NCBI GenBank assembly: GCA_017610265.1
Contig: JAFCCH010000003.1
Coordinates: 1 to 40,291, forward strand
Length of the DNA: 40,291 bases
Reading direction: 5' to 3'
Origin: Nitrososphaerota archaeon
GTDB lineage: Archaea > Iainarchaeota > Iainarchaeia > Iainarchaeales > GCA-2688035
The notes below the pieces were generated by a model. It saw only the letters and a program-made list of their open reading frames with translations. It made no database searches and was not told the DNA's origin. Positions within the stretch are counted from its first letter, which is position 1, and every line of letters starts with the position of its first letter. This document shows positions 3,975 through 31,432 of the stretch, one piece after another. A program made the position numbers and the translations under genes.

Positions 3975-4919
3975 TTAAATTCCGTCAAAAAGGCTGCTTA
4001 CAGACTCATTTGAGTGAATTCTATTAATTGCCTTGGCAAAAAGCCCTGCAACGGTCAAAATAGACATTTTTTTGCTCTTGCCGCCCTCTTGTGGAATGCT
4101 GTCTGTTACAACAACTGCGTCAATTCCGCTTTTTTCAATTCTTTCAAAGGCAGGGCCTGAGAAAAGACCGTGGGAGGCACAAACAAAGACTTTTTCGCTG
4201 CCATTTTCCTTCAAGGCATTTGCGGCGGCACAAATTGTTCCAGCTGTGTCAATCATGTCATCAAACATTACACAATTTTTTCCCTTTGCATCTCCAATTA
4301 CATGCATTGCCTCTGCAACACCTGCCTTTGGCCTTGCCTTGTTAATTATTGCAAGCTCTGTTCCAAGGGCCTTTGCAATCTTTGTACCGTTCTTTGCACT
4401 TCCAGCGTCTGGCGCAACAACAAGCAAATTTTCAAGGCCTTTTTCCTTAATGTGCTTTATTAGTATTACAGAACCTGTAAGGTTGTCAACAGGAATGTCA
4501 AAAAAGCCCTGAATTTGATCTGAGTGAAGGTCCATTGTCAGAACACGGTCTGCTCCTGCCTTTTCAATAAGGTTTGCAACAAGCTTTGCGCTGATAGGCT
4601 CACGCGACGCCGCCTTTCTGTCCTGCCTTGCATATCCAAAATAGGGCATTACGGCAGTAATTCTTGCAGCGCTTGACCTTTTGGCTGCGTCAATTAAAAT
4701 AAGCAATTCCATTAAATTTTCTGAAACAGGCTTGCAGGTGCTTTGCACAAGAAAAAGGTCTGTTCCGCGAACATCCTCCAAAAAGCGGACATATTGCTCC
4801 CCGTCGTTAAATCGCTTTAATTCAACCTTTCCCAAATCTGTTCCAATAAATGAAGCAATTTCCCTTGCAAGCGCCGGATTGCCACTTCCTCCAAATACCT
4901 TGAGATTGTGATTGTTCAA
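3975..4919 (-). CDS. prs: ribose-phosphate pyrophosphokinase
   Basis: Makes PRPP from ribose-5-phosphate and ATP for nucleotide, histidine and tryptophan synthesis. The 314 residues contain MPYFGYARQDRK (ATP-binding flexible loop), TMDLHSDQIQGFFDIPVDNL, a VAPDAGSAKNG stretch, and the PRPP-binding loop VMFDDMIDTAGT. Length and motifs fit the classical class I enzyme common in bacteria rather than the shorter form of many archaea. No ATG lies near the N-terminus. The start is a TTG at 4919 with GGGGG six bases upstream, which is a convincing ribosome site. It is first in a same-strand run followed by the aminotransferase and pckG, with modest gaps, so co-transcription is possible. Confidence 0.96.
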   Translation of the reverse strand: MNNHNLKVFGGSGNPALAREIASFIGTDLGKVELKRFNDGEQYVRFLEDVRGTDLFLVQSTCKPVSENLMELLILIDAAKRSSAARITAVMPYFGYARQDRKAASREPISAKLVANLIEKAGADRVLTMDLHSDQIQGFFDIPVDNLTGSVILIKHIKEKGLENLLVVAPDAGSAKNGTKIAKALGTELAIINKARPKAGVAEAMHVIGDAKGKNCVMFDDMIDTAGTICAAANALKENGSEKVFVCASHGLFSGPAFERIEKSGIDAVVVTDSIPQEGGKSKKMSILTVAGLFAKAINRIHSNESVSSLFDGI

Positions 4920-4992
4920 AAAAGACCCCCTATGCTAAAAAGGAAGCACATTGTTTTTAAAAAAAGAATTGAAGTTTAATTAATTGAAGCAA

Positions 4993-5454
4993 ATGGTAAA
5001 AGATTTGATTAAACAGCAGTTTAGAGCGCTTGAAGCAATTGTCGCAAACCCTAATTTGCCTGTTGTTGACAAAGTAAAAGCAATGAGGATGTATGAACGG
5101 TTTTTAAGCAGGCAAACAGGCATTACCCTAAGAGCATTAAAGGAAGCAGGCCATATTGTGAGATACAAAGGCCTTTCAAAAACACAGGTTTTGAACGAAT
5201 TAAGGGCTCTTGAAAATATTTTTGTTGAAGGCGCATTGAAAAGTGCAAGGGAAGTTGGAACACCCCTTACAAGGGCAGAATGCAGGGAAATGTTTTCAAA
5301 TTACGTAGACCAGCATTTTAAGATAAAAATTGGAAGGGAATTGAGGAAAAAAAGAATTGAAACCATTGCAAAAGCCAGAAAGGCAAAAACAGGGCAGGCA
5401 AAGGTCGCAAAAAAGGTTGTTAGAAAACCAAGACCAAGAAAATTAAGACCCTAG
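4993..5454 (+). CDS. small basic alpha-helical protein, unknown
   Basis: About 153 residues, mainly predicted helix (QQFRALEAIVANPNLP, KAMRMYERFLSRQ, LSKTQVLNELRALENIF), ending in a strongly basic tail of KAR, RKP and RPRK. I do not recognise the family. A TTG codon in frame at 4984 is an alternative start. A TATA-like run at 4953-4966 lies about 27 bases before 4984, so the transcript probably begins at or just before that codon and the ATG at 4993 would have almost no leader. It is divergent from prs and sits alone before enolase. The tail resembles those of the other small basic proteins here and could bind nucleic acid, but nothing shows this directly. Confidence 0.75.
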   Translation: MVKDLIKQQFRALEAIVANPNLPVVDKVKAMRMYERFLSRQTGITLRALKEAGHIVRYKGLSKTQVLNELRALENIFVEGALKSAREVGTPLTRAECREMFSNYVDQHFKIKIGRELRKKRIETIAKARKAKTGQAKVAKKVVRKPRPRKLRP

Positions 5455-5522
5455 AATAGATTTTTAAACTAGTTTAAGATTTAATAGAATTAAGAGATTT
5501 TTTTCAGTAGGAGGAAAAAGAA

Positions 5523-6749
5523 ATGGCAAGCGAAATTAAAAAAGTTTTTGGAAGGCAGGTTTTGGACAGCAGGGGAAATCCAACAGTTGAAGCTGAGATT
5601 CACATAGACAAGGGAATTTTTACAGGAATTGTTCCAAGCGGCGCAAGCACAGGCGCAAACGAGGCCCTTGAGTTAAGGGACAAAGGCAATTCATTTATGG
5701 GAAAGGCAGTAACAAAAGCCGTTTCAAATGTTAACAAAAAGATTGCAGGCAAGATTATTGGAATGGACTGCACCTGCCTAAAGGAAATTGACCAGGCGAT
5801 GCTTGAATTGGATGGAACAGACAACAAGGAAAACCTTGGCGCAAACGCAATTCTTGCCGTTAGCATGGCAGCATGCAGAGCAGGCGCGGCCGAAAATGGA
5901 TTGACACTTTACGAGTACATTGCAAGTGTAAGCAAGAACAAGGGAATTACTTTGCCAACTCCTCAAATGAACATAATGAACGGCGGAAAGCACGCAGGCC
6001 TTGAAGAAGACATTCAGGAACAGATGATTGTTGCAAGCGGGGCAAAAACTTACAGCGAGGCAGTGCAAGCAAGCGTTGAAACCTATCATACTTTGAAAAA
6101 AATTCTTAAGAAAAAGTTTGGTTCACAGGCAACCCTTTTGGGAGACGAAGGCGGAGAAGAAGCAGGTTATGGCAACATAACAAACCTTGCGATTGACGCA
6201 GCTTCATCAGAATTTTTCTTAAACGGAAAATACAAGCTTTACGGCAAAGAATATTCGCCAGGAGAGCTTGTGGATTTTTACTCAGACCTGATTGGAACAT
6301 ACAAAAACATTATTTCTTTGGAAGACGGCATGGCTGAAGAAGACTGGGAGGGATGGCAAACCCTAACAAGAAAAATTGGCGGAAAAATCCAGATTGTTGG
6401 AGACGACCTTCTTGTAACAAACCCCAAAAGAATTGCAAAAGCGATTAAGGAAAAAAGCTGCAATGCTTTGCTTTTGAAAATAAACCAGATTGGCTCAATT
6501 ACAGAGTCAATTGAAGCAGCAAAGGCAAGCAAGGACGCAGAATGGGGAGTTGTAGTAAGCCATAGGTCAGGTGAAACAGAAGATTCGTTCATTGCAGATT
6601 TCCTGGTAGGAATTGACGCCGGGCAAAGCAAGCTTGGAGCACCTGCAAGAAGCGAAAGAAATGCCAAATACAACCAGCTGCTCAGAATAGAAGACAGTCT
6701 TGGGAAAAAAGCCGTTTATTATGGCAGAAACGCCGTTAGGAGCCAGTAA
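5523..6749 (+). CDS. eno: enolase (phosphopyruvate hydratase)
   Basis: Interconverts 2-phosphoglycerate and PEP in glycolysis and gluconeogenesis. The 408 residues are slightly shorter than the usual 420-430. The active-site set is intact: the PSGASTGANEALELRD loop, NGGKHAG, GDEGG, an Asp in LAIDAASSEFF, ISLEDGMAEEDW, GDDLLVTNP, the catalytic lysine in LLLKINQIGS, and SHRSGETED. The residue after GDEGG is Glu where most enolases have Phe, a minor variant. AGGAGG lies just upstream of the ATG. A TATA-like TTTTTAAAC at about 5461-5469 implies a leader of roughly 35 bases, unlike the leaderless genes around it. It supplies or uses the PEP made by PckG. Confidence 0.97.
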   Translation: MASEIKKVFGRQVLDSRGNPTVEAEIHIDKGIFTGIVPSGASTGANEALELRDKGNSFMGKAVTKAVSNVNKKIAGKIIGMDCTCLKEIDQAMLELDGTDNKENLGANAILAVSMAACRAGAAENGLTLYEYIASVSKNKGITLPTPQMNIMNGGKHAGLEEDIQEQMIVASGAKTYSEAVQASVETYHTLKKILKKKFGSQATLLGDEGGEEAGYGNITNLAIDAASSEFFLNGKYKLYGKEYSPGELVDFYSDLIGTYKNIISLEDGMAEEDWEGWQTLTRKIGGKIQIVGDDLLVTNPKRIAKAIKEKSCNALLLKINQIGSITESIEAAKASKDAEWGVVVSHRSGETEDSFIADFLVGIDAGQSKLGAPARSERNAKYNQLLRIEDSLGKKAVYYGRNAVRSQ

Positions 6750-9492: not shown

Positions 9493-9500
9493 TTTTAAGC
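9493..9500 (-). promoter_or_regulatory. TATA-like box for nucS inside mazG
   Basis: On the minus strand CTTAAAAC is centred about 27 bases before the nucS ATG at 9469 and covers the mazG stop codon. No Shine-Dalgarno motif separates it from the ATG, consistent with a leaderless nucS transcript that can be made independently of mazG. Confidence 0.5.
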
Positions 9501-9986
9501 CTGCTTTTTTTCAGCTTGCTCTTTCTCAGCCTGCTTTTTTTCAGCCTGCTCTTTTTTGGCCTGCTTTTTTTCAGCCTGCTCTTTTTTGGCCTGCTTTTTT
9601 TCAGCTTGCTCTTTTTTGGCCTTTTTTTCCTCGGCCTTAATTTCGTTCCATCTTTTGACAACTTCTTCAGGGCTTGAAACAACTTCGTCGCCAAAAACCC
9701 AGGGACTTCTTCTCTTCAGCTTTGTACTTGCTTCCTCAATAGCCTCTTTGATGGTAAAAAGGCCTTTTTCTTCAGCAATAAGGCCAATGAAAAGGGCATC
9801 CCACAAAACGTCTCCAAATTCTTCGCGCATGTTTTCAACGTCGTTTTTTTCAATGGCTTCCCTTAGCTCTCGAACCTCATCCTCTAGTTCAGGCAACTGG
9901 GCTTCAATTGTCCTGCTTTTGGCCCAAGGGCACTTTTTCCTCTTCAAAATAAGGGCATTAATAAATTCCTTCACTGCTTTGTCCAT
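9495..9986 (-). CDS. mazG: MazG-type nucleotide pyrophosphohydrolase with repeat tail
   Basis: All-alpha NTP pyrophosphatase that removes noncanonical or excess nucleoside triphosphates. The visible MazG core runs over roughly residues 15-120: KCPWAKSRTIEAQLPELEDE, the acidic metal-binding pair in EVRELREAI, and EEFGDVLWDALF. The remaining 45 residues are a tail of KKEQAEKKQA units encoded by a 30-base tandem repeat. Such a tail is not part of the family and is probably a flexible or coiled helix. The frame extends upstream to 10055, but the ATG at 9986 starts right before the conserved core. It lies directly upstream of nucS, so pool cleaning and mismatch cleavage are encoded together. Confidence 0.88.
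   Translation of the reverse strand: MDKAVKEFINALILKRKKCPWAKSRTIEAQLPELEDEVRELREAIEKNDVENMREEFGDVLWDALFIGLIAEEKGLFTIKEAIEEASTKLKRRSPWVFGDEVVSSPEEVVKRWNEIKAEEKKAKKEQAEKKQAKKEQAEKKQAKKEQAEKKQAEKEQAEKKQA
9511..9630. repeat. four 30-base tandem units coding the MazG tail
   Basis: Two identical 30-base units occupy 9541-9570 and 9571-9600, with degenerate copies at 9511-9540 and 9601-9630. Each unit encodes ten residues of the type KKQAKKEQAE on the minus strand. Because the unit length is a multiple of three, the shifted minus frame is also open and reads as a Lys/Arg/Ser repeat that appears to extend nucS upstream. Copy number is a likely site of strain variation by slippage. Confidence 0.9.
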
Positions 9987-26536: not shown

Positions 26537-26782
26537 CTATTTTCTCAAAAAATCCCTGACTTTCTTCAAACGCCTTCTCTGCTTTTTTAGGTGACCTGCT
26601 GTAAAATTAAGAAAACCGGCCTTTTCGTTAAGAGACCTCATTCTGGCAGTATCACTTCTAAGCCCTGCTTCTCCTGCAGCATCTGAAAACTTTTGGGCAG
26701 ACTTTTTCATTGAATTCGCAGCCCTGCCCTTCTTCTTCATATTCCTATTCAAGTTGGTTATAATCCTTTTCCTCAAAGCCAT
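26537..26782 (-). CDS. small basic helical protein, unknown
   Basis: About 81 residues from the ATG at 26782, almost entirely helix and rich in Lys/Arg (ALRKRIITNLNRNMKKKGR at the start, LKKQRRRLKKVRDFLRK at the end). I do not recognise it. GGTG stands upstream of the ATG, and a GTATTTAAAT box at 26824-26833 predicts a leader of about 19 bases. The stop codon lies in a perfect palindrome AAATAGCTATTT. It separates the dph5 group from the sugar-kinase fusion. Nucleic-acid binding is plausible from composition only. Confidence 0.7.
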   Translation of the reverse strand: MALRKRIITNLNRNMKKKGRAANSMKKSAQKFSDAAGEAGLRSDTARMRSLNEKAGFLNFTAGHLKKQRRRLKKVRDFLRK

Positions 26783-26841
26783 TTTTTCAAAACACCTTTC
26801 CAAATAGATTATACTTTTTTCAAGTATTTAAATTCAACTAA

Positions 26842-28482
26842 TTAAACAGCCGCTTTGTCAGCCAAAACAAGGGCATTCAAATGCCTTTGCAAAGAGGCCG
26901 CAGGGCAATTCAAACTCTTTGTTTTCTTAAGCATGCATGAAACAGCATTTTTCTTCTGCTTTCCTGAGGCAAGCATCAGAATTGCATCACTTTCAAGAAT
27001 TGTCTTAATGCCAACAGTCATTGCCCTCTCAGGAGCCAACCCACTCTTAAATGAAACTCCGTTAACCTTCCTCGTAGATTGCTTTAGTTTAATTACACGA
27101 GTTCTGCTAGTGAAAGAAGAGCCAGGCTCGTTAAATGCAATGTGCCCATTTTGCCCAATCCCAAGAAGGCATAAGTCAATTCCCTTTCTCTGAATTGCTT
27201 TTTCATGCTTTCCGCACTCAAGCCCTGGCTTTTTAGCAGAGCCATTCAATAAATGAATGTTTTTCTTCCTTGCATTAACCTTTCCCAAAAACCTGCTCAT
27301 TAAGAAAAATGAAAAGCTGTTCTTGTCCTCTGGAGAAAGTCCAACATACTCGTCTAAAGAAAAGAAAGAAGCCCTTGAAAAGTCTGCCTTGCCGTTTTTG
27401 TAAGCATTTGTAAGTAAAGAGTAAAGTCTTTTGGGAGTGCTACCTGTTGGCAAAGCAAAGCTTGCATTTGGCTTGCTTGAAAGAATATCAAGCACTGCCT
27501 GAGCAGCCTCCCTACTCATTTCCTCATGACTTTTTGTAACAATTACAGGCAAGCTTGCGCGTTTGGCAACAAATTTCTTTACAGCTGACGCCGAGGGAGC
27601 GGCAAGTCCATGCACTTTAATCTTTTGTCCTGCAACAAAGTTTCCCGCAATCATGCAATTGAACAAAGACCAATCGTTCACAAGGCCGAATACAAAGCCT
27701 GCGTTAAAGGCGTCACCTGCACCTGTTGTGTCAACAACCTTTCCAGCAACAGAAGAAAACGTCTTTGGCTTCAAACCGTTTACGAAAAGAGTTGAACCTG
27801 TTGAAGACTGCTTTACCGCAACACAAGTCGCGCCCTTCCTGAAAAGAAAGTCAACACGCTTTGCCATTGTATTTCCCTTTGCAATGTGTTTTAGTTCAAT
27901 ATCGTTTACGAAAAGGAAATCAATCAATGGAAGGAACTCTGATATGTTCCAGACATTGTAAGTGTCAAAGCAAGTGTCAAAGCAAACAAGGGCCTTGCGT
28001 TTTTTTATTTGTACAAGAAGCCTTCCAAAGCCAGGTCTAAACTTTTGCAAGTGGTAGAAACCGCCGAAGAAAACAATGTCTCCGGCCTTTAACTTAGAGA
28101 GTAATGCCTTTGCAACCCTGCTTGAAGTTATTTCACTAAGGCAATTCTTTACCGACTGAATTGAACGCTCGCCGCGCTTGTTCACAAGAATTATACTGAA
28201 GGCATTTGGCTTGCCACTCTTAATCAGCTTTGAGGGAACCTTTGCCTTTGCAAGCTCTTTCTTCAAAAACTTTGTTGAAAAGTCTTTACCTATCGCAGCA
28301 AGAAGCACTGGGTTAATGCCAAGCTTTGAACCAATCACTGCAAAATTTGCGGCATTGCCGCCGATTGAGAAATCAAGCTCTTTAAGGGAATGTTCTTCGC
28401 CAAACTCCACAGAATGTGAAATTTCCTGCAAAATGTCAACTCCAAGATCCCCTACTGAGAAAACCTGCCTTTTTCCTACCAT
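26842..28482 (-). CDS. fused PfkB sugar kinase and glucosamine-6-P deaminase
   Basis: A single 546-residue frame containing two whole enzymes. Residues 1-305 are a PfkB/ribokinase-type kinase: GGNAANFAVIGSKLG at 41-55 and the catalytic DTTGAGDAFNAGF at 251-263 with Asp257 as base. After a short linker, residues 315-546 are a NagB-type glucosamine-6-phosphate deaminase: phosphate loop ALPTGSTP at 343-350, FSLDEYVG with Asp377, and GIGQNGHIAFNEPG with Asn445, His447 and Glu452. Several Gram-positive NagB enzymes also have Asn in the first of these positions. The combined product would phosphorylate glucosamine and convert it to fructose-6-phosphate and ammonia. Sugar specificity of the kinase is inferred from the fusion. 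Start ATG at 28482; TATA-like box at 28509-28517 shared with the divergent deacetylase. Confidence 0.9.
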   Translation of the reverse strand: MVGKRQVFSVGDLGVDILQEISHSVEFGEEHSLKELDFSIGGNAANFAVIGSKLGINPVLLAAIGKDFSTKFLKKELAKAKVPSKLIKSGKPNAFSIILVNKRGERSIQSVKNCLSEITSSRVAKALLSKLKAGDIVFFGGFYHLQKFRPGFGRLLVQIKKRKALVCFDTCFDTYNVWNISEFLPLIDFLFVNDIELKHIAKGNTMAKRVDFLFRKGATCVAVKQSSTGSTLFVNGLKPKTFSSVAGKVVDTTGAGDAFNAGFVFGLVNDWSLFNCMIAGNFVAGQKIKVHGLAAPSASAVKKFVAKRASLPVIVTKSHEEMSREAAQAVLDILSSKPNASFALPTGSTPKRLYSLLTNAYKNGKADFSRASFFSLDEYVGLSPEDKNSFSFFLMSRFLGKVNARKKNIHLLNGSAKKPGLECGKHEKAIQRKGIDLCLLGIGQNGHIAFNEPGSSFTSRTRVIKLKQSTRKVNGVSFKSGLAPERAMTVGIKTILESDAILMLASGKQKKNAVSCMLKKTKSLNCPAASLQRHLNALVLADKAAV

Positions 28483-28508: not shown

Positions 28509-28517
28509 GTATTTAAC
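28509..28517. promoter_or_regulatory. shared TATA-like box, kinase-deaminase / PIG-L
   Basis: GTATTTAAC reads GTTAAATAC on the other strand. Its centre is 29 bases before the PIG-L ATG at 28542 and 31 bases before the kinase-deaminase ATG at 28482. Only 59 bases separate the two start codons, and no second box is evident, so one element could set both divergent leaderless transcripts. Confidence 0.5.
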
Positions 28518-28541: not shown

Positions 28542-29192
28542 ATGGTAAAGGCATTAGTTATTGTAGCCCATCCAGATGACGAAACCATCTGGTGTGGAGG
28601 CACTATTTTAACGCATCCTGAATGGGATTGGACCATTTTAAGCCTTTGCAGGGCAAAAGACCGCGATAGGGCTCCTAAGTACAGAAAGGTCTGCAAAAAG
28701 CTTGGGGCAAAATGTGCAATTTCTGATTTGGAAGATGACAACCCTGAACAAAATCTGCAGTCTCTTGACGAGGTAAAAACAAGAGTTCGCAAGATGCTGC
28801 GCAAGTTGAAGGCAGGAAGAAAGTTTGACGCAGTGTTCACGCACGGTGTGCGTGGCGAGTACGGACACAAGCGACACAAAGAAGTCAATCGCGCAGTGCG
28901 CGAGATGATTGATAGCAATGAGCTGCGCGCGAAGAAAGTTTTCTTCTTTCGCTACGCGCTTGCGAAGCGCGGCTTCTTCTGCATGCCGAACGAGCGCGGC
29001 GCGAACGAAATCGCGCACTTGAACGCGCAAATCGCGCAATCGAAACGCTTATTAATCACTTCTGCGTACCAATTTAGTAAAGGAAGCTTCGAAGCGCGCA
29101 GTGCGCGTGCGATTGAAAGTTTCAAAGCGGAAGAGTACGAACATGAAGTCAATGATTCTCTATCCTTATCCGCCGGAACTCGACGGACTTAG
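28542..29192 (+). CDS. PIG-L/LmbE-type N-deacetylase
   Basis: A 216-residue zinc deacetylase of the PIG-L family, which includes GlcNAc-PI, N-acetylglucosaminyl-malate and diacetylchitobiose deacetylases. Zinc motifs are VAHPDDETIW (His10, Asp13) and HGVRGEYGHKRHKEV (His109 and His112 in GHxxH). The frame opens earlier, at 28506, but the ATG at 28542 is correctly spaced from the TATA-like box and begins right at the conserved strand. From about residue 82 to the end, codon use changes sharply: Arg becomes CGC and Ala GCG, unlike its first third. The last 50 bases overlap the glycosyltransferase gene. Substrate may be free GlcNAc, a chito-oligosaccharide or a glycolipid. Confidence 0.9.
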   Translation: MVKALVIVAHPDDETIWCGGTILTHPEWDWTILSLCRAKDRDRAPKYRKVCKKLGAKCAISDLEDDNPEQNLQSLDEVKTRVRKMLRKLKAGRKFDAVFTHGVRGEYGHKRHKEVNRAVREMIDSNELRAKKVFFFRYALAKRGFFCMPNERGANEIAHLNAQIAQSKRLLITSAYQFSKGSFEARSARAIESFKAEEYEHEVNDSLSLSAGTRRT

Positions 29193-29350
29193 CATTCAGG
29201 GCGACATGCTTTACAAAGGGATGCTTAAAAACGGATTAGAAGCAGTGCCATGTGACAGAGGCGCGGGCGCTGAAAAAGAGTTACTTTACAAAACCTTTAA
29301 GCCAGACGCAGTCATCGGCATTGGTTACTGGGCGGACGCGCAGCGAATCA
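28785..29350. other. GC-rich patch with foreign codon usage
   Basis: Within this stretch Arg is written mostly CGC/CGT/CGA, Ala often GCG, and GCGC tetranucleotides cluster densely (for example around 28890-29050 and 29090-29110). Flanking sequence of the same two genes uses AGA/AGG and GCA. The boundaries fall inside genes, at about residue 82 of the PIG-L protein and residue 70 of the glycosyltransferase, so the shift does not follow gene limits. Reading frames remain intact throughout. Confidence 0.65.
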
Positions 29351-30330
29351 TCGAAGACCCACTGCATTTTAGAGTACAACCTGTTCCATGGCTTAACGCA
29401 GACGGATGGGTTGCAAACTATCACGAACTTCTTAATTCCCTTCCATTGATTCTTACAACAAGTAACTGGGTAAAAGAGACTTATCACAGAGATGGCGTTA
29501 CAAACAAGAACATGTATGCAATGCCAATAGGCATAGATACAGAGCAAATGAGACCTATTCCAAGGGATGACCCGAGAATTCAGCAGGTCAGAAAAATGCT
29601 TGGAGTAGAGCCTGACGAAAAGATGATTCTTACATCCGGCGGAGACACCACAAGCAAGGGTTTCCAAGAGGTTTTACAGGCATTGGGAAAAATAAACGGC
29701 AAGTTCCCTGACTGGAAGTATATTGGAAAGACCTGGGAAAAAGGAAAGCCCTTGTACCACTACAGAAAAGAAATGGAGATCATGAAAGACTTTGATATCA
29801 GAAGAAAGGTTGATTTTATTGACGGCCCTCTTTCAAGGGAATTCATGTGCTATCTTTTGAACGCATGTGACATTTATGCAGCCCCAAGCAGAATCGAGGG
29901 CTTTGGAATGATTCAGGTTGAGGCAATGGCCTGCGGAAAGCCTGTTGTTTCAATTGACGCAATGGGAATGAAAGACACGATTATTCACAACGAGACAGGA
30001 CTTCTTGCAAAGGTTGGCGAAGAAATTAAGTTGGAAGAAGAGTGGGCTTACAAGTGGATGGGCTTTGAAAAAAAGCAAATCGTTCACTTTGACGAGCCAA
30101 AGACCTTTGCTTACAGGGCAGACATTGATGATTTGTCAGAACATTTATACAAGCTTCTCTCAGATGACGACTTAAGAGAGAAGTTGGGACAAAAGGCAAG
30201 GAAGCACGCTGTTAAGAACTTTGACTATTTGAAGACATCAAAGCAGTTGCATGACCTTGTTGCAAAAAAGCTTGGCGTAAACGGCAATTCTATTGCAGAA
30301 TCGGCAACCGTTTCTGTTCAAGAGAACTAA
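29143..30330 (+). CDS. GT4-type glycosyltransferase
   Basis: A 395-residue retaining glycosyltransferase with GT-B fold. The donor-binding half is clear: TSGGDTTSKGFQEVLQALG, the LLNACDIYAAPSR segment, and EGFGMIQVEAMACGKPVV with the E-x7-E pair. The N-terminal half starts MKSMILYPYPPELDGLS and contains LILTTSNWVKETYHRDGV. I place the start at ATG 29143; 29152 is an alternative. It overlaps the deacetylase by 50 bases, so the two are co-expressed. A GT4 enzyme with a PIG-L deacetylase also occurs in bacillithiol and GPI-type pathways, so the product could be a GlcNAc glycoside. The donor sugar is not determinable. Its 3' end overlaps the converging glycosidase gene by 41 bases. Confidence 0.88.
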   Translation: MKSMILYPYPPELDGLSIQGDMLYKGMLKNGLEAVPCDRGAGAEKELLYKTFKPDAVIGIGYWADAQRIIEDPLHFRVQPVPWLNADGWVANYHELLNSLPLILTTSNWVKETYHRDGVTNKNMYAMPIGIDTEQMRPIPRDDPRIQQVRKMLGVEPDEKMILTSGGDTTSKGFQEVLQALGKINGKFPDWKYIGKTWEKGKPLYHYRKEMEIMKDFDIRRKVDFIDGPLSREFMCYLLNACDIYAAPSRIEGFGMIQVEAMACGKPVVSIDAMGMKDTIIHNETGLLAKVGEEIKLEEEWAYKWMGFEKKQIVHFDEPKTFAYRADIDDLSEHLYKLLSDDDLREKLGQKARKHAVKNFDYLKTSKQLHDLVAKKLGVNGNSIAESATVSVQEN

Positions 30331-31432
30331 GGGCAAAAAGGAAAGCACCTGCACTCCACGCGTGATAGTCACTGCCCTCGGCCTTCTTTGTTAGAGGGTG
30401 AACCCATTCATTGAATTCCCACTTATATTTCTTGCCAAGTTTGTTGACTTCAATTAATGACTTAAGTGCTTTTTCTGCTTCGTTAAAGCGTTTGGCTTTT
30501 ACCAATGCAGCAACGTAAAATCCGCCAATGAAGGGCCAAATACCTCCGTTTAGATAGGAGTTTGGATCTTTTGCAAGGCACTTTGAAAAATAGCTGTGCC
30601 ATTCCTTGCTCCCCTTCTTAATCGGAGGATATATGCATCTTATTGGATAGGGTTTTGCAACCCCTTTCTTTTTGATAAAGTCAAGAATGCTGTTTGCCTG
30701 CTTTTTGGTTGCGAGGCCTGAGCAAATTGCAAGCAGGTTTCCAAGACTATCAAACCATGTTTCCTGCTCTATGTCTCCGTCGTGGTTTTTCCAAACCCAG
30801 GGATAAAAGTAACCTGCTTTCTTGTTAAACATATGGATTTTTGGACCTGTCTTTCCAGAAGATGCAAGCAAAACCTTTTCCTGTTCTTTTTTCTTGCCGT
30901 AAAGCCCTAGTGCACCATAGTATAATGCCAGGCTGTTAATTGTGTGACCATATTTGTGGGGAAACGCGTCCTGCCAATCGCTTGTTGGAAGCTGTTCAGG
31001 CAAATAATCTTCCCCCGCATCCTGGCTTCCAAGCCATTCAAATGCTCTTTTGGCATGGCGCCTGTGCCTTGAGAAAAGCCTTCTTCCATTGTAATTGTGC
31101 TTGTAAAATTGAAGACCCCAAAGATACCACAAAGAGCTGTCCATCGTTGCAAAAGTAACCTGTTTTGGCCTGTCTCCAAAGAGATCAACAGCGTTTGGAA
31201 TCTGGCCATGCTTGCTTTGGTACTTTGCAAGCGTGTTTAAAGTGGTTGCAAACTGTATTTTGAATTCCTTTTCCTTGTCGTAACAGCTTGTGCCAATAAG
31301 CCCAATCATGGAGTCACGGGCAAACACAATGTCATAACCGTCTTTTCCGCCTGATGCATGCATTCCATTGGGGGTAGAGCAAAACATCATTGTTTCCTTT
31401 GCCCTAAGCACTGCTTCTTCAACCAAAGTCAT
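30290..31432 (-). CDS. (alpha/alpha)6-barrel glycosidase, GH100/debranching-like
   Basis: A 380-residue cytosolic protein without signal peptide. The repeating paired-helix layout and several blocks resemble GH100 neutral invertases and the amylo-1,6-glucosidase domain of debranching enzymes: IVFARDSMIGLIG, TMDSSLWYLWGLQFY, LPTSDWQDAFPHKYGHTINS (with a candidate acid Asp), YLNGGIWPFIGGFYVAALV and SDYHAWSAGAFLFAL. GH15 or GH63-like activity cannot be excluded, so substrate is open (alpha-glucan end, trehalose, glucosylglycerate). The CATATTTAAAG box at 31454-31464 is about 27 bases upstream on this strand, giving a leaderless start. The 3' end lies on top of the glycosyltransferase end. Confidence 0.75.
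   Translation of the reverse strand: MTLVEEAVLRAKETMMFCSTPNGMHASGGKDGYDIVFARDSMIGLIGTSCYDKEKEFKIQFATTLNTLAKYQSKHGQIPNAVDLFGDRPKQVTFATMDSSLWYLWGLQFYKHNYNGRRLFSRHRRHAKRAFEWLGSQDAGEDYLPEQLPTSDWQDAFPHKYGHTINSLALYYGALGLYGKKKEQEKVLLASSGKTGPKIHMFNKKAGYFYPWVWKNHDGDIEQETWFDSLGNLLAICSGLATKKQANSILDFIKKKGVAKPYPIRCIYPPIKKGSKEWHSYFSKCLAKDPNSYLNGGIWPFIGGFYVAALVKAKRFNEAEKALKSLIEVNKLGKKYKWEFNEWVHPLTKKAEGSDYHAWSAGAFLFALSSLEQKRLPILQ

Follow-up and report, generated by a model that had tools for sequence, protein, structure and literature searches.

A conserved PfkB-NagB fusion protein of Candidatus Diapherotrites, probably a bifunctional glucosamine kinase and glucosamine-6-phosphate deaminase

Does an archaeal reading frame that joins a PfkB-family sugar kinase to a NagB-type deaminase represent a genuine gene and, if so, which reactions would its product catalyze? 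The locus lies in the window, the whole 40,291-nucleotide stretch of DNA analyzed here, in which a first-pass annotation had placed one polypeptide with two complete catalytic halves at 26842–28482. A single uninterrupted open reading frame is present there, on the minus strand, which the annotation had left unstated; the plus strand carries 27 stops across the same coordinates. The most likely start is ATG 28482, which matches the annotated coordinate and the point at which homologues begin, and a GTG six bases upstream is the alternative. The gene and its parts are as follows:

26842..28482, minus strand: PfkB-NagB fusion gene, 546 aa from ATG 28482 to the stop at 26842, or 548 aa from GTG 28488
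27595..28464, minus strand: PfkB/ribokinase-family kinase domain, residues ~7–296 (ATG numbering), Pfam PF00294
27712..27732, minus strand: DTTGAGD motif, residues 251–257, with the predicted catalytic base D257
27547..27594, minus strand: linker of ~16 residues without an extra domain
26848..27546, minus strand: NagB-type deaminase domain, residues ~313–545

Both Pfam domains are covered nearly in full (PF00294, PfkB: 2e-38, 132.9 bits against a cut-off of 25.8, 290 aligned residues, profile positions 4–298 of 302; PF01182, Glucosamine_iso: 1.2e-23, 84.6 bits against a cut-off of 27). DTTGAGD lies at the residues given in the first-pass annotation, and the deaminase motifs listed with it, ALPTGSTP, SLDEY and GIGQNGHIAFNEP, were all found. 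With the catalytic residues conserved, both halves appear competent, judging by sequence. The deaminase half scored 212.8 bits (5.1e-63) with the NCBIfam nagB model TIGR00502, below the equivalog cut-off of 236.9, and the NagB-PIG-L protein of another genome, G026, likewise fell below it (209.5 bits). A 6-phosphogluconolactonase identity was rejected for this half (TIGR01198, 64.1 bits against a cut-off of 124.45). The kinase half reached no NCBIfam equivalog cut-off, its best score being for ribokinase, with 85.7 of 299.65 bits.

A frameshift or an assembly join between two genes, which the annotation had named as what could undo its reading, was ruled out by 11 further genomes whose orthologues are full length and free of stops. 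The search covered 87 genomes, all those of the phylum in the dataset, for which we use the name Candidatus Diapherotrites taken from locus L061. Including that of the window, 12 genomes from two families carry the full-length fusion without internal stops, at 36–65% identity: seven further fusions belong to the family of the window (57–65%) and four to a second family of the same order (36–43%). Additional copies were cut by contig ends in two cases and broken in one. The same two-domain order, for which an archaeal search had been suggested, was not found in ~820 genomes sampled from three further archaeal phyla (371, 156, and 295 genomes); in one of these, Pacearchaeota, NagB occurs in 25 of 371 genomes and the fusion in 0 of 371. 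When genome contigs were scanned with a single sequence, no match was obtained, and an alignment-based scan kept 80 loci, of which L060 and L061 were fusions and the remainder NagB only. Since relatives keep the same full-length frame without an internal stop, and the linker is short and of constant length among them, the fusion is a conserved gene and not an artefact. The PfkB-NagB domain architecture is thus real and conserved. We found no published account of it in the open-access literature (subscription papers lay outside the search), in agreement with the earlier remark that it is not known as an established enzyme; the architecture appears undescribed so far, and the individual reactions are already known.

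Kinases without a fused NagB (solo kinases) fall inside the fused clades of the kinase tree, those of G003 and G005 in the first family and that of G055 in the second. In G003, another gene directly follows the solo kinase. No NagB remnant was found near the solo kinases of G003 and G005, and in both genomes NagB is encoded at another place, as a fusion with a PIG-L domain. The simplest reading is secondary loss of the fused NagB; recurrent fusion may be the explanation instead. The fused NagBs of both families and the solo cluster NagBs of G034 and G055 form one clade (support 94/89). Members of the sister group of the fusion kinase clade (support 87/90) adjoin glycogen synthase or GH15-type amylase genes, and one of these kinase genes shares an 8-base overlap with its GH15-like gene.

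The gene order at the locus is the fusion (or, in relatives, the solo kinase), a divergent PIG-L gene, then GT4, then the GH100-like gene:

28509..28516, minus strand: predicted archaeal TATA box TTAAATAC, 27–34 bases upstream of the fusion ATG
28542..29192, plus strand: PIG-L/LmbE-family de-N-acetylase (PF02585, 1.4e-13), likely start ATG 28542, reading frame opening at TTG 28506
29143..30330, plus strand: GT4 glycosyltransferase (PF00534, 7e-26), likely start ATG 29143, reading frame opening at GTG 29101
30290..31432, minus strand: (alpha/alpha)6 glycosidase, GH100/GDE_C-like (Pfam GH100, 2.4e-14)

A gap of 59 bp separates the PIG-L gene from the divergently oriented fusion, and PIG-L orthologues adjoin the kinase in relatives. 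Read by eye, the TATA box (TTAAATA) or a close variant occurs in the divergent gap of the window and 10 relatives; it is near-palindromic and so possibly shared with the PIG-L gene, and its distance from the ATG would suit a nearly leaderless archaeal transcript. The GT4 protein is distant from MshA, BshA, and GlgM. Foldseek matched the glycosidase to invertases, and as the model is poor (mean pLDDT 63), the GH100 assignment is a lead. The presence of GT4 and PIG-L together raised the possibility of a mycothiol- or bacillithiol-like thiol pathway, which was rejected: the GT4 score is far below the MshA and BshA cut-offs, and no cysteine-ligase gene was recognized within the clusters. Elsewhere in the same genome, GH130 is encoded on another contig and glmS is present. 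Full-length glmS was not found in five genomes of the same genus (G001–G005), possibly reflecting another source of glucosamine-6-phosphate or incompleteness. Just downstream of the fusion, at 26537–26803 (minus strand), lies a basic 88-aa open reading frame with no Pfam or NCBIfam match, and some relatives have small open reading frames at its position. Farther away, at 9495–9694 (minus strand), low-complexity lysine-rich repeats (KKSRLKKSRPKK, KKEQAEKKQA) end two overlapping reading frames.

In nearly all Diapherotrites clusters with enough sequence, PIG-L lies next to the fusion or to the solo kinase. The cluster, often including GH130, is found again in other DPANN archaea, and there NagB usually either neighbors PIG-L or is joined to it; locus L086 of the Pacearchaeota, for example, combines NagB, PIG-L, GT4, GH130, and GH100-like genes. 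Among 18 NagB loci read in that phylum, PIG-L was in the cluster in 10, fused to NagB in 5, and neither in 3. A ~730-aa GT4/GH127-like protein accompanies NagB, PIG-L, GT4, GH100-like, and GH130 genes at L175, L178, L183, L187, L188, L191, and L086. NagB with a C-terminal PIG-L domain (~485 aa) is found in many Diapherotrites and Pacearchaeota genomes, often besides PfkB-NagB (L046 4395–5852, L048, L050, L051, L052, L053, L054, and others). Clusters outside Diapherotrites mostly have no kinase nearby. Within the 87 Diapherotrites genomes, kinase and NagB occur together in 22, the kinase only in 2, NagB only in 1, and neither in 62; counted for unfused genomes alone, these numbers are 7, 2, 1, and 62 (Fisher 2e-7, a statistic that ignores kinship). 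The sole NagB-bearing Diapherotrites genome without the PfkB kinase is G026 (Diapherotrites AR10), in which a ROK kinase gene (L053, 3869–4867) overlaps the NagB-PIG-L gene (4780–6219). A hexose/hexosamine 6-kinase of the ROK family in this position fits a glucosamine substrate. ROK kinases were also seen in two further clusters of the Pacearchaeota. Beside the solo kinase of G034 (L045, 3427–6382) are genes for glucosyl-3-phosphoglycerate synthase (GpgS), an MPGP-family phosphatase, and a GH15-like protein, suggesting a glucosylglycerate cycle; the solo kinase was rejected as part of that cycle, being convergent with and not co-directional to these genes.

We propose that the fusion protein is probably a bifunctional glucosamine kinase/glucosamine-6-phosphate deaminase. 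The N-terminal PfkB domain would use ATP to phosphorylate the 6-hydroxyl of glucosamine, and the C-terminal NagB domain would isomerize and deaminate the resulting glucosamine-6-phosphate to fructose-6-phosphate and ammonia. Glucosamine would be supplied by the divergently encoded PIG-L deacetylase acting on N-acetylglucosamine or on a GlcNAc glycoside, the latter handled by the neighboring GT4 and glycosidase and by the GH130 phosphorylase encoded elsewhere in the genome. The order would be deacetylation, phosphorylation, and deamination, as in Thermococcales; in bacteria, it is phosphorylation, deacetylation, and deamination. The neighborhood genes (PIG-L, GT4, GH100-like) support the glucosamine route. 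As suggested in the first-pass annotation, the sequence glucosamine, glucosamine-6-phosphate, fructose-6-phosphate stands as the best-supported pathway, on gene context, kinase–NagB co-occurrence, replacement by ROK, and the lack of the Pfk-2 basic residues, whereas we infer the substrates, that of the kinase included, the order of the reactions, the use of ATP as phosphate donor, and any advantage gained by joining the two enzymes. Against a bifunctional reading, the kinase is separable, with G003 and G005 keeping it without a fused NagB.

The substrate specificity of PfkB kinases is hard to predict, and two other readings of the kinase half were weighed. By sequence search, its closest solved structure is E. 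coli YdjH (3h49, 6e-19), with ribokinases also close. Foldseek likewise returned ribokinases, although the AlphaFold model of this half, which rested on three kinase sequences only, had low confidence. The motifs GGNAAN and DTTGAGD are conserved in orthologues, some having AAGD, and D257 corresponds to Pfk-2 D256, an Asp found at this position in each of the ten E. coli PfkB-family proteins compared. The kinase could act downstream of the deaminase as a PfkB-type 6-phosphofructokinase, leading from glucosamine-6-phosphate through fructose-6-phosphate to fructose-1,6-bisphosphate. The steps would be equally consecutive, PfkB-type phosphofructokinases exist, and two close kinase relatives (G584, G586) adjoin genes judged by sight to be for triosephosphate isomerase and FBP aldolase/phosphatase, without NagB. 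We nevertheless regard this reading as quite unlikely. Positions 27 and 90 of Pfk-2, which we take to be substrate contacts with a role in fructose-6-phosphate binding, are K27 and R90; the window protein, with E and P, lacks both basic residues, and the aligned clade has an invariant Glu at 27 and P/G/M/Q/L/A at 90. Within the E. coli K-12 PfkB family, position 90 is basic only in pfkB, fruK, and yihV, which have anionic substrates. Phosphofructokinase models also scored far under the ribokinase model, pfkB and fruK lie on other branches of the kinase trees, and the enzyme that substitutes beside NagB-PIG-L in G026 is of the ROK hexokinase type. The missing basic residues at the two aligned positions and the nearest relatives in glycogen clusters favor a glucose-type 6-kinase, and an ancestral glucose kinase activity that later shifted to glucosamine is plausible. 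In the other reading, a general glucose/hexose kinase with glucosamine among several substrates is joined to a true glucosamine-6-phosphate deaminase mainly for co-expression. The sister kinases have glycogen/GH15/GH57 gene neighborhoods, neither a ROK kinase nor an ADP-dependent glucokinase was found in the window's own genome, and the ADP-dependent kinase of T. kodakarensis is about equally active on glucose and glucosamine (PMC6520443). What makes this reading unlikely is that the fusion kinases, unlike their glycogen-linked relatives, are tightly paired with NagB and PIG-L; the D-x3-D-x4-W motif, constant in Diapherotrites kinases and absent from the glycogen-linked ones, also speaks against it. 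The motif is a candidate specificity element and also occurs in two near relatives outside the phylum with no NagB nearby.

A third alternative concerns the deaminase half, whose substrate may have shifted to some other amino-sugar phosphate or to an amino sugar without the phosphate; the kinase would then work on what the deaminase produces, for instance as a fructokinase. The position equivalent to the lid Arg172 of E. coli NagB is V in the window protein and K/G/V/Q in every one of the 12 fusions, whose lid loop is also shorter; the cluster-type solo NagBs of G034 and G055 have also lost the arginine and shortened the loop, and the NagB of L086 is likewise without it, whereas all nine NagB-PIG-L paralogues keep it. 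As the residue is R in 8 of 10 bacterial NagBs and K or E in the remaining 2, it is not strictly defining for NagB. The catalytic residues D377, H447, E452, and K510, equivalent to E. coli D72, H143, E148, and K208, are invariant in 12 of 12 fusions, and E. coli Asp141 is replaced by Asn, as in all other compared NagBs save that of E. coli. The nearest protein by sequence is B. subtilis NagB (E 1.4e-48), and the same enzyme is the closest structure (2bkv, TMt 0.95) to an AlphaFold model that, for this half, is very good (pLDDT mostly above 90). The equivalents of the phosphate-loop Thr44 and of Lys208 are also invariant. In simulations of S. mutans NagB, their counterparts Thr38 and Lys194 dominate phosphate binding, and the lid Arg159, which by numbering offset probably corresponds to Arg172, has its role in the entry step (PMC8369159). 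Read against these simulations, the invariant Thr and Lys and the lost lid arginine suggest that phosphate binding is likely retained and that the entry step may differ from that of Arg-bearing NagBs. We consider drift to another substrate very unlikely.

Returning to the bifunctional glucosamine reading, a broader extension of it is tentative and, in our view, rather doubtful: that the fusion supplies the central kinase and deaminase of a DPANN pathway so far undescribed (GT4, PIG-L, GH100-like, GH130, NagB, and an interchangeable PfkB or ROK kinase) that would make and recycle a glucosamine-containing glycan or solute, with the PfkB half as a further, independently evolved glucosamine kinase family. 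Confirmation of the bifunctional reading would yield a glucosamine kinase of a new kind and a compact enzyme for two steps, in which transfer of the intermediate is measurable; the gene would also mark an amino-sugar pathway common to several uncultured DPANN groups, whose carbohydrate metabolism is poorly known.

Compared with known systems, the deaminase half most resembles the monomeric B. subtilis NagB (2bkv): the Foldseek alignment spans the whole domain at ~39% identity, and both proteins have Asn at E. coli position 141. It differs from that enzyme in its fusion to a kinase, the replaced lid arginine, and the shorter lid loop. The kinase half shares its fold, GGNAAN, and DTTGAGD with E. 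coli YdjH and ribokinase, but the fusion kinases form a separate clade with conserved residues of their own, in which the kinase trees identified no characterized member. Known glucosamine kinases, from V. cholerae, T. kodakarensis (ADP-dependent), and actinobacteria (SjGlcNK), are non-homologous and belong to three families (PMC6520443); they catalyze the reaction proposed here, the ADP-dependent type was not found in these genomes, and a PfkB-type enzyme would add a further family. NagB-PIG-L fusions of the NCBIfam NF002557 type similarly tie the NagB superfamily to a neighboring pathway step, but the partner is a deacetylase rather than a kinase and the lid arginine is kept. Chitin catabolism in Thermococcales employs a deacetylase, glucosaminidase, kinase, and deaminase, the deaminase TK1755 being of a novel type (PMC6579819). 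The likeness to that pathway drawn in the first-pass annotation holds at the level of function, in the proposed deacetylation before phosphorylation, and does not extend to the proteins: the kinase and glycosidase families are different, no ADP-dependent glucokinase was found in these genomes, and the fusion deaminase is NagB-type.
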